Source of the DNA: Runella sp.
GTDB taxonomy: Bacteria > Bacteroidota > Bacteroidia > Cytophagales > Spirosomataceae
Reading direction: 5' to 3'
Length of the DNA stretch: 51,182 nt
Assembly: GCA_023254175.1 (NCBI GenBank)
Contig: JALQYJ010000096.1
Coordinates: forward strand, 1-51,182
Below are positions 17,953 to 21,703 of this stretch, piece by piece (position 1 is the stretch's first letter; the number at the start of each line of letters is the position of its first letter). The notes beneath the pieces are model-generated. The model had not been told where the DNA came from, made no database searches, and saw only the letters and a list, made by a program, of their open reading frames with translations. Both the position numbers and the translations under genes were made by a program.

Positions 17953-19041
17953 TTAACGATTGCTTAATTGTTTTAGCGCTTCCAAAAGTACCTTATTCTC
18001 TTCGCTCGTTCCTACCGTAATACGCAAGCAATCTTCGCACAATGTCACTTTTGAACGGTCGCGGACGATGATTTTTTGTTCAATTAAATCATCAAACAAC
18101 TGCTTGGCTTTCTCAAATTTAACCAATAAGAAGTTAGCATCTGAAGGGTAAATATGCCTCACCGTAGGTATGGCAACCAACTCCTGCGCTAACCTGTCTC
18201 TTTCGGCTAAAATTTCTTTCACTAACTGATTTTTAGTTTCTACAAAATCAAGTGCTTCCAACAAAATCGCCTGCGTAGCACCGCTAAGGTTGTAAGGCGG
18301 TTTGATTTTGTTCAATACCTTGATAATTTCTTCCGATGCAAAGCACATCCCTAAACGCAACGAAGCCAACCCCCACGCTTTAGAAAACGTTTGAAGTACG
18401 ATAAGATTGGGGTAATTGTCTAATTCGTTGGTAAAAGAGACTGTCGAAGCTTCCGCAAATGTAGAACCTTCGGGAAGTTCAGCAAAGTCGATATAGGCTT
18501 CATCCACCACTACCAATCCCGAAAAATTAGCCAAAATGGCCAAAATGGACTCTTTTTTTACCAAATTTCCGCTGGGATTGTTGGGCGAACATATCCAAAC
18601 AATTTTAGTATTTGGCGTAACAGCTGCCAACACTTTCTCGGTATTAATCTGAAAATCAGGCGTCAGAGGAACTTTTATAACGGGGACATCATTAATATCT
18701 GCACTTACCTGGTACATACCATAAGTAGGCGGCATGATAAGGATATTATCTTCGCGCGGGGTACAAGTAGCCCGAACGAGCAAATCTATCGGTTCGTCAG
18801 AGCCATTTCCTAAGAATATTTGACTAGGACGAACCCCTTTGATAGGAGCAAGTTTTTCCTTAATAGCCCATTGGTACGGATCAGGGTAGCGATTCCAATG
18901 CTGCCCGTTGACCAATTGGTACGGGTTTTCGTTGGCATCCAAAAATACCCCTTCTTTGCCCGTATATTCATCGCGAGCGGAAGAATAGGGCACCAAATTC
19001 AAAATGTGTGGACGAAGAATCGAAGCTAAATCAAATGTCAT
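17953..19041 (-). CDS. hisC: Histidinol-phosphate aminotransferase
   Basis: A fold-type I PLP aminotransferase. ATG 19041 (MTFDLASILRPHI) is chosen over an upstream ATG at 19068 because HisC proteins begin this way; this gives 362 aa. Motifs: PYSSARDEY, DANENPY, FLGNGSDEPIDLL, WICSPNNPSGN, VVDEAYIDF, and the PLP lysine in QTFSKAWGLASLRLG. It makes histidinol phosphate from imidazole acetol phosphate with glutamate. It is third in hisG-hisD-hisC, 101 bp after hisD. The remaining his genes (B, H, A, F, I) are not in the window. Confidence 0.93.
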   Translation of the reverse strand: MTFDLASILRPHILNLVPYSSARDEYTGKEGVFLDANENPYQLVNGQHWNRYPDPYQWAIKEKLAPIKGVRPSQIFLGNGSDEPIDLLVRATCTPREDNILIMPPTYGMYQVSADINDVPVIKVPLTPDFQINTEKVLAAVTPNTKIVWICSPNNPSGNLVKKESILAILANFSGLVVVDEAYIDFAELPEGSTFAEASTVSFTNELDNYPNLIVLQTFSKAWGLASLRLGMCFASEEIIKVLNKIKPPYNLSGATQAILLEALDFVETKNQLVKEILAERDRLAQELVAIPTVRHIYPSDANFLLVKFEKAKQLFDDLIEQKIIVRDRSKVTLCEDCLRITVGTSEENKVLLEALKQLSNR

Positions 19042-19142
19042 TGTATTAAAAGTGGCAACCCACTTCATTGAAATTCGTAGATTAACTTATTTAATTGCAT
19101 AAAATCGATGATTTGACTGGCATTCGAACAAACCATCGTTTG

Positions 19143-20411
19143 TTATTTCAAACTACTCAATCGCAAACTCACCGCACGTTTGTGCGCTTGAAGCGATTCG
19201 GCTTCGGCCATAACTTCCACGATTGAACCAAGTTCTTTGAGCCCTTCGGGGGTAATGTACTGAATCGTAATCTTTTTCACAAAACTATCCAACGAAACAC
19301 CGCTGTATGCCCGAGCGTGACCGTTGGTGGGCAAGGTATGGTTCGTACCCGACGCATAGTCTCCGCACGATTCGGGGGTATAGTTTCCTAAAAAAATCGA
19401 GCCAGCATTGTAAATCCGTTCGCTCACTGCCTCGGCATTATCAACGCTCAAAATCAAGTGTTCCGCTGCGTATTCGTTCAGCAATTCAATGGCCTCTTCT
19501 TGGGTTTCGACCAAAATCGCCTTGCTGTTTTCAATCGCTTGGCGCGCCAGTTCCTTGCGCGGTAAAGCTTCCAACTGCGTTGATAAAGTAAGGTTGACTG
19601 CTGCTAAAAACTTTTTGTCCGTCGATACCAACAATACCTGACTGTCGGCGCCGTGCTCGGCCTGCGACAACAAATCGGCCGCTACAAACGACGGCAATGC
19701 GGTAGCATCGGCATATACCGCTACTTCAGATGGCCCCGCAGGCATATCTATTGCAACACCTTCTTTGGCCAATAACATTTTAGCCGCCGTCACGTATTGA
19801 TTCCCTGGTCCAAAAATTTTATACACCTTCGGTACCGACTCCGTTCCGTAGGCCATCGCCGCAATGGCTTGTGCCCCTCCTACTCGGAATATTTTTGTTA
19901 CTCCCACCAACTGAGCCGCGTACAAAATAGCAGGATGGTCGCTTGGAGTGCAAAGAACTACTTCGCGGCAGCCTGCTAATTGGGCAGGTACACCGAGCAT
20001 CAGCACCGTACTAAACAAGGGGGCTGAGCCTCCTGGAATGTACAAACCTACTTTTTCAATTCCCACGCTTTTGCGCCAACACGTAACCCCAGGCATCGTC
20101 TCGATTTTCTGTACGGGTTGGTGTTGTGCCTCGTGAAAAGTCTGGATGTTTTGATAGGCTTGGCGAATCGCCGCTTTTAACTCCTCCGAGAGGGCTGCTT
20201 CGGCAGCGTCAATCGTGGTTTGGGGCATAGCAATATCATCAAGGGCTATTTTATCAAATTGCAACGTCAATGCTCTAATAGCGGCATCGCCCTCGGTACG
20301 GACTTTCTCCAAAATAGGCACTACGGCTTTTTCAATATTGGCAATGCTTTGCGTTGGTCGTGCCAACAAAGCAGGCCAGTCTGATTTTTTAGGAAAAGAA
20401 ATAATTTGCAT
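19143..20411 (-). CDS. hisD: Histidinol dehydrogenase
   Basis: The 422-aa protein has the family signatures VGLYIPGGSAPLFSTVLMLGVPA, FRVGGAQAIAAMAYGTESVPKV, IFGPGNQYVTAAK, DMPAGPSEV, LLSQAEHGADSQVLLV and AEHLIL. The Zn/catalytic residues (Gln-Ala-Glu-His) are intact. It oxidises histidinol to histidine, the last two steps of the pathway. It begins 28 bp after hisG and belongs to the attenuator-controlled his operon. Confidence 0.95.
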   Translation of the reverse strand: MQIISFPKKSDWPALLARPTQSIANIEKAVVPILEKVRTEGDAAIRALTLQFDKIALDDIAMPQTTIDAAEAALSEELKAAIRQAYQNIQTFHEAQHQPVQKIETMPGVTCWRKSVGIEKVGLYIPGGSAPLFSTVLMLGVPAQLAGCREVVLCTPSDHPAILYAAQLVGVTKIFRVGGAQAIAAMAYGTESVPKVYKIFGPGNQYVTAAKMLLAKEGVAIDMPAGPSEVAVYADATALPSFVAADLLSQAEHGADSQVLLVSTDKKFLAAVNLTLSTQLEALPRKELARQAIENSKAILVETQEEAIELLNEYAAEHLILSVDNAEAVSERIYNAGSIFLGNYTPESCGDYASGTNHTLPTNGHARAYSGVSLDSFVKKITIQYITPEGLKELGSIVEVMAEAESLQAHKRAVSLRLSSLK

Positions 20412-20439: not shown

Positions 20440-21294
20440 TTAGTAAATCATCTTTTCAATCGGAATCACCAAGATTCCCTCGGCCCCTGCTTCACGAATT
20501 TTAACGATGTTGGTCCAAAAATCGTTTTCATTGATAACCGAATGTAGCGACACCCAACCTTCGGTTTTTAAAGGCACCACTGTAGGCGCTTTCATCCCTG
20601 GAAGTAACGATGCAATCTGGTCAATGGCTTCAATGGGACTATTAAGTACAATGTATTTGTTGCTTTGAGCTGCTTGTACGGCATTGATTCGGAACAACAG
20701 GCTCTCCAAAATTACTTGTTTTTCGTCCGGCAACTTCTGATTTCCGATTAAGACCGCTTCCGATTTGAAAATCACTTCCACTTCTTTCAATCCATTACTC
20801 AACAGCGTGCTACCTGAGCTAACGATGTCGCAAACGGCATCGGCCAAACCAATACTTGGGGCAATTTCGACCGAACCGCTGATTTCGTGAATTTCGGCTT
20901 TAATTCCGTGTCCTTGGAGATAATTTCCTAAAATACGTGGATAAGAGGTGGCTATACCACGTCCTTGAAGGTCTTGAACACCGTTCCACTGTGTACTGCG
21001 AGGAATAGCCAACGATAGGCGGCATTTTGAGAAGCCTAATTGATGAACAACACGTACGTTTTTGCTAGACTCAACGAGTACGTTTTCACCCACAATACCC
21101 AAATCAGCCACGCCATCTTCGACATAGCCTGGAATATCATCATCGCGAAGAAAAAGAAACTCCGCAGGAAAATTCGTCGAAAGAGACTTGAGTTTACCCG
21201 TCGAACCGCTTTCAAAACGGATACCACATTCTTTAAATAACTTGATGGAATCGTCGCTTAAACGTCCCGATTTTTGAATGGCAATACGTAACAT
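20440..21294 (-). CDS. hisG: ATP phosphoribosyltransferase, long form
   Basis: The 284-aa protein starts LRIAIQKSGRLSDDSIKLFKECGI. It has GYVEDGVADLGIVGENV, ATSYPRILGNYL and the PRPP loop region SGSVEIAPSIGLADAVCDIVSSGSTL. The C-terminal about 75 residues (residues 205-284; LPGMKAPTVVPL...) form the HisG_C regulatory domain, so it is the long form that binds histidine and needs no HisZ. It catalyses the first committed step. It is the first gene of the operon and lies behind a His-codon leader peptide and attenuator. Confidence 0.95.
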   Translation of the reverse strand: MLRIAIQKSGRLSDDSIKLFKECGIRFESGSTGKLKSLSTNFPAEFLFLRDDDIPGYVEDGVADLGIVGENVLVESSKNVRVVHQLGFSKCRLSLAIPRSTQWNGVQDLQGRGIATSYPRILGNYLQGHGIKAEIHEISGSVEIAPSIGLADAVCDIVSSGSTLLSNGLKEVEVIFKSEAVLIGNQKLPDEKQVILESLLFRINAVQAAQSNKYIVLNSPIEAIDQIASLLPGMKAPTVVPLKTEGWVSLHSVINENDFWTNIVKIREAGAEGILVIPIEKMIY

Positions 21295-21383: not shown

Positions 21384-21424
21384 GAAAAAGACTACGCACG
21401 ACCTCTATCCGTCAATCATGCGTA
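21384..21424 (-). promoter_or_regulatory. his operon attenuator (terminator hairpin)
   Basis: Read on the minus strand, TACGCATGA (21424-21416) pairs with TCGTGCGTA (21401-21393), one G-U, across a 14-nt loop; TCTTTTT follows. The upstream leader segment ending GCGTA, which overlaps the leader stop codon (about 21443-21437), can pair with the same TACGC instead and so prevent the terminator. This is the classic layout: with charged tRNA-His the ribosome covers segment 2 and the terminator forms; when stalled at the His codons, segment 2 is free and transcription continues into hisG. Confidence 0.7.
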
Positions 21425-21436
21425 AGGAATAAGTAT

Positions 21437-21499
21437 CTACGCTCGCCCGCAGGCGTGGAAATGATGATGTCGAAAAAAAGCGCAGTTCGGTGTTTTCAC
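21437..21499 (-). CDS. hisL: his leader peptide
   Basis: GTG 21499 to TAG 21437 encodes 20 residues, MKTPNCAFFRHHHFHACGRA, with four His codons in five (HHHFH). It starts 16-25 nt downstream of a good promoter and ends just before a terminator hairpin, 143 bp before hisG. No ATG is available in frame; a stop lies seven codons upstream, so GTG is the only reasonable start. Its role is to sense histidyl-tRNA by ribosome stalling; the peptide itself probably has no function. Confidence 0.75.
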   Translation of the reverse strand: MKTPNCAFFRHHHFHACGRA

Positions 21500-21523
21500 G
21501 AAGAATTGTACAAATTAAAGGCA

Positions 21524-21554
21524 CAAATGTAGTTTGGTCTGGCAAGATTATCAA
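21524..21554 (-). promoter_or_regulatory. his operon promoter
   Basis: On the minus strand TTG (21554-21552), 20 nt, TACATTTG (21531-21524). Both elements and the spacing fit the Bacteroidota housekeeping promoter (TTG, 19-21 nt, TAnnTTTG). Transcription would begin about 21515-21518, just before the leader peptide. Confidence 0.65.
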
Positions 21555-21703
21555 GGATTTGTACAAAAAAGACATTTTTTAGCTAAAATTCCTTGCCTAA
21601 GAGAAATAGTAGAAGAAATACAACACGTTTCTTTTTTACGTACTATTTTTGGAAATAAATCGAACACACGTACTTTTCGGTCACTTTTTTAAAAACGATT
21701 ACG

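Follow-up and report, generated by a model that had tools for sequence, protein, structure and literature searches.

The hisGDC operon of Runella sp. is very likely controlled by a ribosome-mediated transcription attenuator, whose mode of action is most probably the classical one. The attenuator lies on the (-) strand of the window, the whole stretch of 51,182 nucleotides that was analysed, and all features described below are on this strand. Ribosome-mediated attenuation of hisG had been proposed from sequence inspection, and we favour it because of the anatomy of the region, its conservation, the folding of the leader with the ribosome in different positions, and the recurrence of this layout across many Bacteroidota. 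Pfam domains identify hisG, encoding ATP phosphoribosyltransferase (20440..21294; PF01634 and PF08029), hisD, encoding histidinol dehydrogenase (19143..20411; PF00815), and, as the third gene of the operon, a class I/II aminotransferase (17953..19068; PF00155), which from its position is probably hisC. Thus, the operon 3' of the leader makes histidine, the amino acid of the leader codons. The upstream region contains a TTG at -33 (21552..21554), matching the consensus, and, after a spacer of 20 nt, the -7 element TACATTTG (TAnnTTTG; 21524..21531), elements which we take to be of the Bacteroidota promoter type. The parts of the promoter TTG-N20-TACATTTG, as described by the sequence-only reading, are thus located at 21554-21524. 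A scan with the promoter consensus gave three matches versus 2.3 expected. In an alignment of nine Runella sequences, representing nine of the 12 leaders found in the genus (all except L003, L004 and L008), seven of the eight columns of the -7 element are invariant, as are nine of the 20 columns of the spacer. The order of promoter, leader ORF, pairing segments and terminator before hisG is likewise as had been claimed, with 142 nt between the leader stop codon and hisG.

The leader ORF (21437..21499) starts with GTG, ends with TAG and translates to VKTPNCAFFRHHHFHACGRA, corresponding to the 20-aa peptide with HHHFH recognized in the sequence-only reading at 21499-21437. The regulatory codons, His-His-His-Phe-His, occupy positions 21455..21469. 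hisG is present in all 13 genomes of the genus, and the leader ORF in 12 of them, with a single match per genome, located at hisG. The GTG start, the length of 20 codons and the TAG stop are unchanged in 12/12 leaders. Among the nine aligned sequences, 49 of the 63 ORF columns are invariant; in the stretch from the terminator to hisG, which contains gaps, the corresponding figure is 8 of 96. Codons 12 to 14 alternate between CAT and CAC where they specify His; codon 12 is changed from His to Arg in three leaders and codon 14 specifies Phe in four. Eight of the 12 leaders have five His codons, the window has four, and L002-L004 have three. Alignment of the regions upstream of hisG from relatives had been suggested as a check, and the His run is retained in 12/13 genomes. 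The exception is genome G008 (locus L005), where no leader was found upstream of hisG despite a HisG that is 93% identical.

The RNA contains four segments that can pair in alternative ways. Region 1 (CTGCGCT; 21479..21485) pairs with region 2 (AGCGTAG; 21437..21443) in the minimum-energy fold, which also includes, within the 1:2 stem, a CGCC-UGCG-GGCG hairpin with a UNCG-type loop (21444..21455), and the terminator. UNCG loops are known to be stable. Region 2 is identical in 12/12 leaders and includes the stop codon, and it can pair either with region 1 (1:2) or, downstream, with region 3 (2:3); the stop codon was therefore correctly placed in the segment that would switch partners. The sequence-only reading did not include region 1, the hairpin at 21455-21444 or the two TTTGTACAA palindromes around the promoter. 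Region 1 reads CTACGC in 10/12 leaders, CTGCGC in the window and TTACGC in L009. The 1:2 pairs are nearly constant across the 12 leaders, with a G-U pair instead of A-U in the window and, in L009, a region 1 that begins with a different base. The nested hairpin differs only in L012 and L013, which have UACG in place of UGCG; either loop is of the UNCG type. When pairing between the start-to-His and post-His segments (1:2) was compared with shuffles, it was stronger than in shuffles in 8/46 leaders tested from Runella and other Bacteroidota.

Region 3 (21414..21425), which is both the 3' side of the putative antiterminator and the 5' arm of the terminator, can pair with region 4 (21392..21403), and the resulting stem is followed by a run of five T (21385..21389). 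The sequence-only reading described a 9-bp terminator with a T-run; hairpin and T-run are both present, but the stem has 12 pairs in the full fold, from 21425 to 21392, rather than nine. The hairpin 21424-21393 folds alone with -13.4 kcal/mol, and the energy of the window terminator was reached in 3/300 dinucleotide shuffles of the downstream region. The hairpin at 21393-21424 was missed by a simple terminator scan. Among the Runella leaders, a hairpin that reaches -7 kcal and is followed by a T-run is found in 7/12, versus zero to three in ten shuffle sets, and at -10 kcal in 1/12, versus zero to one in the shuffles, so that the set of 12 is not far above the shuffles; five of the 12 (L002-L004, L012 and L013) have no distal hairpin that combines this energy of -7 with a T-run. 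L012 and L013 retain the stem, but its tail is CCCC. In L002-L004, when compared with 21384-21443 of the window, the terminator has been lost by an apparent deletion between GCGTAG repeats, and the T-run is now behind the 1:2 stem. Mostly since L002 lacks the stem, none of the 36 columns of the terminator stretch is invariant in the nine aligned sequences; among the seven leaders having the stem, an alignment that leaves out L002-L004 (without stem), L008 and L013, 12 of the 30 stem-loop columns are invariant. Across seven distinct sequences, 90% of 70 cells are paired in the 3:4 stem, versus 26-44% when one side is slid. Eight of its ten pairs are variable, with the change confined to one side in every case. 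Because no pair has changed on both sides and partner shuffles equal the observed values, the 3:4 pattern is one of compatibility rather than covariation.

For the antiterminator, GCGTA (21442-21438) can pair with TACGC (21424-21420). These segments are where the sequence-only reading had put them, but in the window the duplex is weak by itself (p 0.23). The 2:3 pairing is found in 85.7% of 42 cells, versus 16.7-66.7% when slid, the highest value being at slide -2. No pair is altered on both sides in the Runella leaders, and partner shuffles reach the observed values. The duplex test covered 46/69 leaders, namely the ones whose hairpin reached -7. The 2:3 duplex beats shuffles in none of the seven Runella leaders (p 0.085-0.455); over the whole set, complementarity between the post-His segment and the 5' arm of the terminator has p<0.05 in 26/46 leaders, none of them from Runella.

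Folding of the leader in both states had also been suggested as a check. We folded the RNA up to the terminator loop after removing an assumed ribosome footprint of 30 nt and everything upstream of it. With the ribosome on a His codon of the window, the expected number of pairs between region 3 and upstream bases is 5.5-7.7 of 12; with the ribosome at the stop codon it is 0.0, and the terminator probability is 0.96. The same holds for L006, L007 and L009, with 4.1-7.4 pairs on the His codon and 0.0 at the stop, and for L105, L112, L113 and L121 from two other families, with 7.8-10.9 and 0.3-2.1 pairs, respectively. These masked folds agree with a switch, but the equilibrium folds do not show it: in the full-length RNA, the terminator of the window prevails even with a stalled ribosome (0.92-0.96). 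The decision would therefore have to be kinetic, as it is in classical attenuators. In RNA folded without a ribosome, region 3 of the window pairs upstream (8.0 of 12), and the terminator has a probability of 0.61 in the window and 0.00 in L006; such folds suggest that the ribosome-free idle state may give read-through.

From these parts and fold outcomes, we infer the following course of events. Transcription would start about 20 nt upstream of the GTG, as judged from the promoter, and a ribosome would initiate on the 20-codon leader. When charged tRNA-His is ample, the ribosome would reach the stop codon and cover region 2, leaving region 3 free to form the terminator with region 4, and hisG would stay untranscribed. 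When charged tRNA-His is scarce, the ribosome would stall on HHHFH, with region 1 covered or cut off; region 2 would then pair with region 3, the terminator would not be formed in time, and the polymerase would enter hisG. Where a congener lacks the distal terminator, its role may be taken over by the 1:2 hairpin and the T-run that follows.

Leaders of this kind extend beyond the genus. In the family, hisG was found in 148/150 genomes, and of the 135 non-genus matches, 57, hand-picked from the places listed, had their upstream regions read. By a strict test, a leader is present in 6/57 of these regions, from three genera, and absent in 51/57; the reverse strand gave one and the shuffles a mean of 0.64. 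An F-R-H motif is common to the Runella leaders, the leaders of genus g5 and one leader of g19. In a sample of the phylum, hisG was found in 171/198 genomes (the own genus included), and regions were read for 80 of 169 non-genus matches, again hand-picked from the places listed. Outside the family, a His-rich leader ORF within 230 nt was detected in 50 of the first 60 regions, from 11 of 18 families; the reverse strand gave one such ORF and the shuffles averaged 0.84. A slightly different scan gave 51 of the same 60. These 60 regions are skewed, since 58 of them have a HisG at least 43% identical to that of the window. Twenty further regions with a distant HisG (about 30-33%), including 14 from family f16, yielded no leader. 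All in all, outside the family the leader is found in 50/58 loci with HisG at least 43% identical and in 0/22 with a more distant HisG. The latter are L139, L140 and L269-L288, from families f14, f16, f27, f29, f34, f36 and f38. A leader throughout the whole phylum was consequently rejected, and we narrow the claim to lineages with window-like HisG because the distant-HisG loci gave no leaders. A terminator of -10 kcal or better follows 36/51 leaders outside the family, versus zero to two in ten shuffle sets. Of 590 named hisG loci, the scan kept the best 80. A leader is present at 57 of these, versus one on the reverse strand, and a terminator reaching -10 at 21; no leader was found at five Dyadobacter loci. 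Thus, ribosome-mediated his attenuation is well supported as being common in a large part of Bacteroidota, and the rarity of such leaders outside Gammaproteobacteria, implied by the sequence-only reading, does not hold for that part of the phylum. In L015, L021, L023-L025, L044 and L063, the leader ATG is 4 nt past TAnnTTTG, a distance so short that these may be leaderless mRNAs. Three loci of family f22 (L134, L137 and L138) have ten His codons, a GTG 4 nt past TAnnTTTG and no clear terminator.

A second architecture is found in Algoriphagus, Pontibacter, Marivirga, Rufibacter and others, where the leaders (20 picked by eye among L170-L206) end in HHFHHSS or close to it. In these 20, ATTCCTC...GAGGAAT or a similar pair of repeats encloses the stop codon. 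The resulting hairpin folds in 19/20 with -3.5 to -9.3 kcal, the miss, L192, being due to the wrong place having been located, and a downstream terminator reaching -10 is absent from all 20. Such hairpins are in line with a different mechanism for Runella, in which the 1:2 hairpin is itself the terminator or a pause platform, a His-stalled ribosome in its loop keeps it open, and the 3:4 stem is dispensable. The near-invariance of the 1:2 segments in 12/12 leaders fits this explanation, as does the arrangement in L002-L004, L012 and L013, where, alone among the 12, a run of five T stands 4 nt past the 1:2 stem (-11.7 to -12.1); L006 has four T at this place. However, a T-run 4 nt off the stem makes a poor terminator by the usual rule, and the window has an interrupted T-run (ATACTTATTCC) behind 1:2 and a good 3:4 terminator downstream of it. 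Furthermore, a ribosome at the stop codon would mask the 3' arm of 1:2. A stable segment after the His codons was rejected as a general feature, as it beats 95% of shuffles in 5/69 leaders, which also speaks against this mechanism. We consider it unlikely. Somewhat less likely still is an action of the leader ORF on translation or via Rho, with the ribosome exposing or hiding either a Rho site or the start of hisG, in which case the 21393-21424 hairpin would be incidental. It would account for the five Runella leaders that have no distal terminator with T-run and for several leaders of other lineages without an intrinsic terminator at -10 or better, but not for the strong intrinsic terminators of the relatives outside the family, and the gap between the stop codon and hisG is long and poorly conserved. 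That a chance His-rich ORF stands next to an unrelated terminator is highly improbable: the stability of the whole-leader fold is not greater than that of shuffles (z -0.52), as this would predict, but conservation of the leader ORF in 12/13 congeners is the decisive argument against it, joined by the excess over shuffles in the first 60 loci outside the family.

Attenuation by alternative pairing thus remains the preferred reading for the window. For the group as a whole, we tentatively consider a history, possible although more doubtful than not, in which the His leader is old in the Bacteroidota lineages with window-like HisG and the platform converting stalling to control has been repeatedly replaced. 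It would have taken the form of a distal terminator in many lineages, e.g. Chitinophagales, and of a single stop-enclosing hairpin in the Algoriphagus/Pontibacter type and in Runella subclades. In the Runella subclades, a deletion between the GCGTAG repeats would have joined the 1:2 stem to the T-run. A stalled ribosome would directly block such a stop-enclosing hairpin, with no need for an antiterminator.

Two TTTGTACAA palindromes flank the his promoter. The upstream one is TTTGTACAAA (21558..21567), and the second, TTTGTACAA (21506..21514), lies in the 5' leader, 53 bp from the first; both are invariant in the nine aligned sequences. The pair is present in the same 12/13 genomes as the leader, and four genomes of the genus have one further pair elsewhere. 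They are possible operators of a regulator. TTTGTACAAA is about seven times commoner than its reversed control in its own genome (48 versus 7) and several times commoner in each of the 13 Runella genomes. Because 15 of the 17 sites read are within ORFs, this excess is mostly explained by coding sequence. Moreover, of 13 regions upstream of the DUF2805 gene, six could be read, and the site is missing from two of these (L242 and L244). The idea that TTTGTACAA serves as a global operator and that DUF2805 (PF10985) is its autoregulated binder was rejected on these grounds. The close congener G008 (L005, L251), in which hisG has neither leader nor palindrome pair, has a DUF2805 homologue that reads with one internal stop.

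Rfam searches at the gathering cut-off gave no match in the whole window or in 20 representative loci, and a search of 351 bases up to E 10 gave four matches, none relevant and RF00514 not among them. The T-box covariance models had no match in the window or the 351 bases, and BLAST of the leader against plasmids found none. The hisL leader of Enterobacteriaceae (RF00514) resembles that of Runella in its run of His codons in a short ORF, a terminator before hisG and candidate alternative pairings. By contrast, the Runella leader has no match to the covariance model and is distinguished by the GTG start, fewer His codons, the UNCG hairpin and the Bacteroidota promoter. Among the matches listed in a literature search, no description of his leaders across Bacteroidota was found. 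Vitreschak et al. (2004) reportedly named Bacteroidetes/Chlorobi among the groups with candidate attenuators, and priority for Bacteroidota his attenuators may lie with them. For Flavobacterium psychrophilum, a member of the same phylum but of another family, 'strong clues' for leader-peptide attenuation before amino-acid operons were described, as was a hisG 5' element present in other Flavobacteriaceae and without Rfam match; a leader peptide within this element is not stated in the excerpt of that paper (PMC9723704). A his attenuator in this phylum is therefore not unprecedented, having been reported in part for Flavobacteriaceae (PMC9723704). The leaders of our family f7, probably Flavobacteriaceae, have a different terminator sequence, ACCCGTTTGAG...TCAAACGGGT. 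In another phylum, some Firmicutes have his attenuators described in PMC9413887 as containing 3-5 consecutive His codons with a terminator and an antiterminator before his operons, and by this description they are like the Runella leader with its His codons, its terminator and its putative antiterminator. Bacteroid-trp RNA (RF01692), which PMC2864571 includes among probable cis-regulatory RNAs of Bacteroidetes, has no match to the window or the 20 loci.

The reach of his leaders in Bacteroidota and the turnover of their expression platform are worth following. Amino-acid attenuator motifs were described in PMC3766115 as possibly of gammaproteobacterial origin with few transfers. His leaders in many Bacteroidota families would point to a control that is old or was invented more than once, and would supply a family absent from Rfam. 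They would also give a handle on transcription-translation coupling in Bacteroidota, where Shine-Dalgarno use differs. The genus Runella itself shows an expression platform that has been lost and perhaps replaced.
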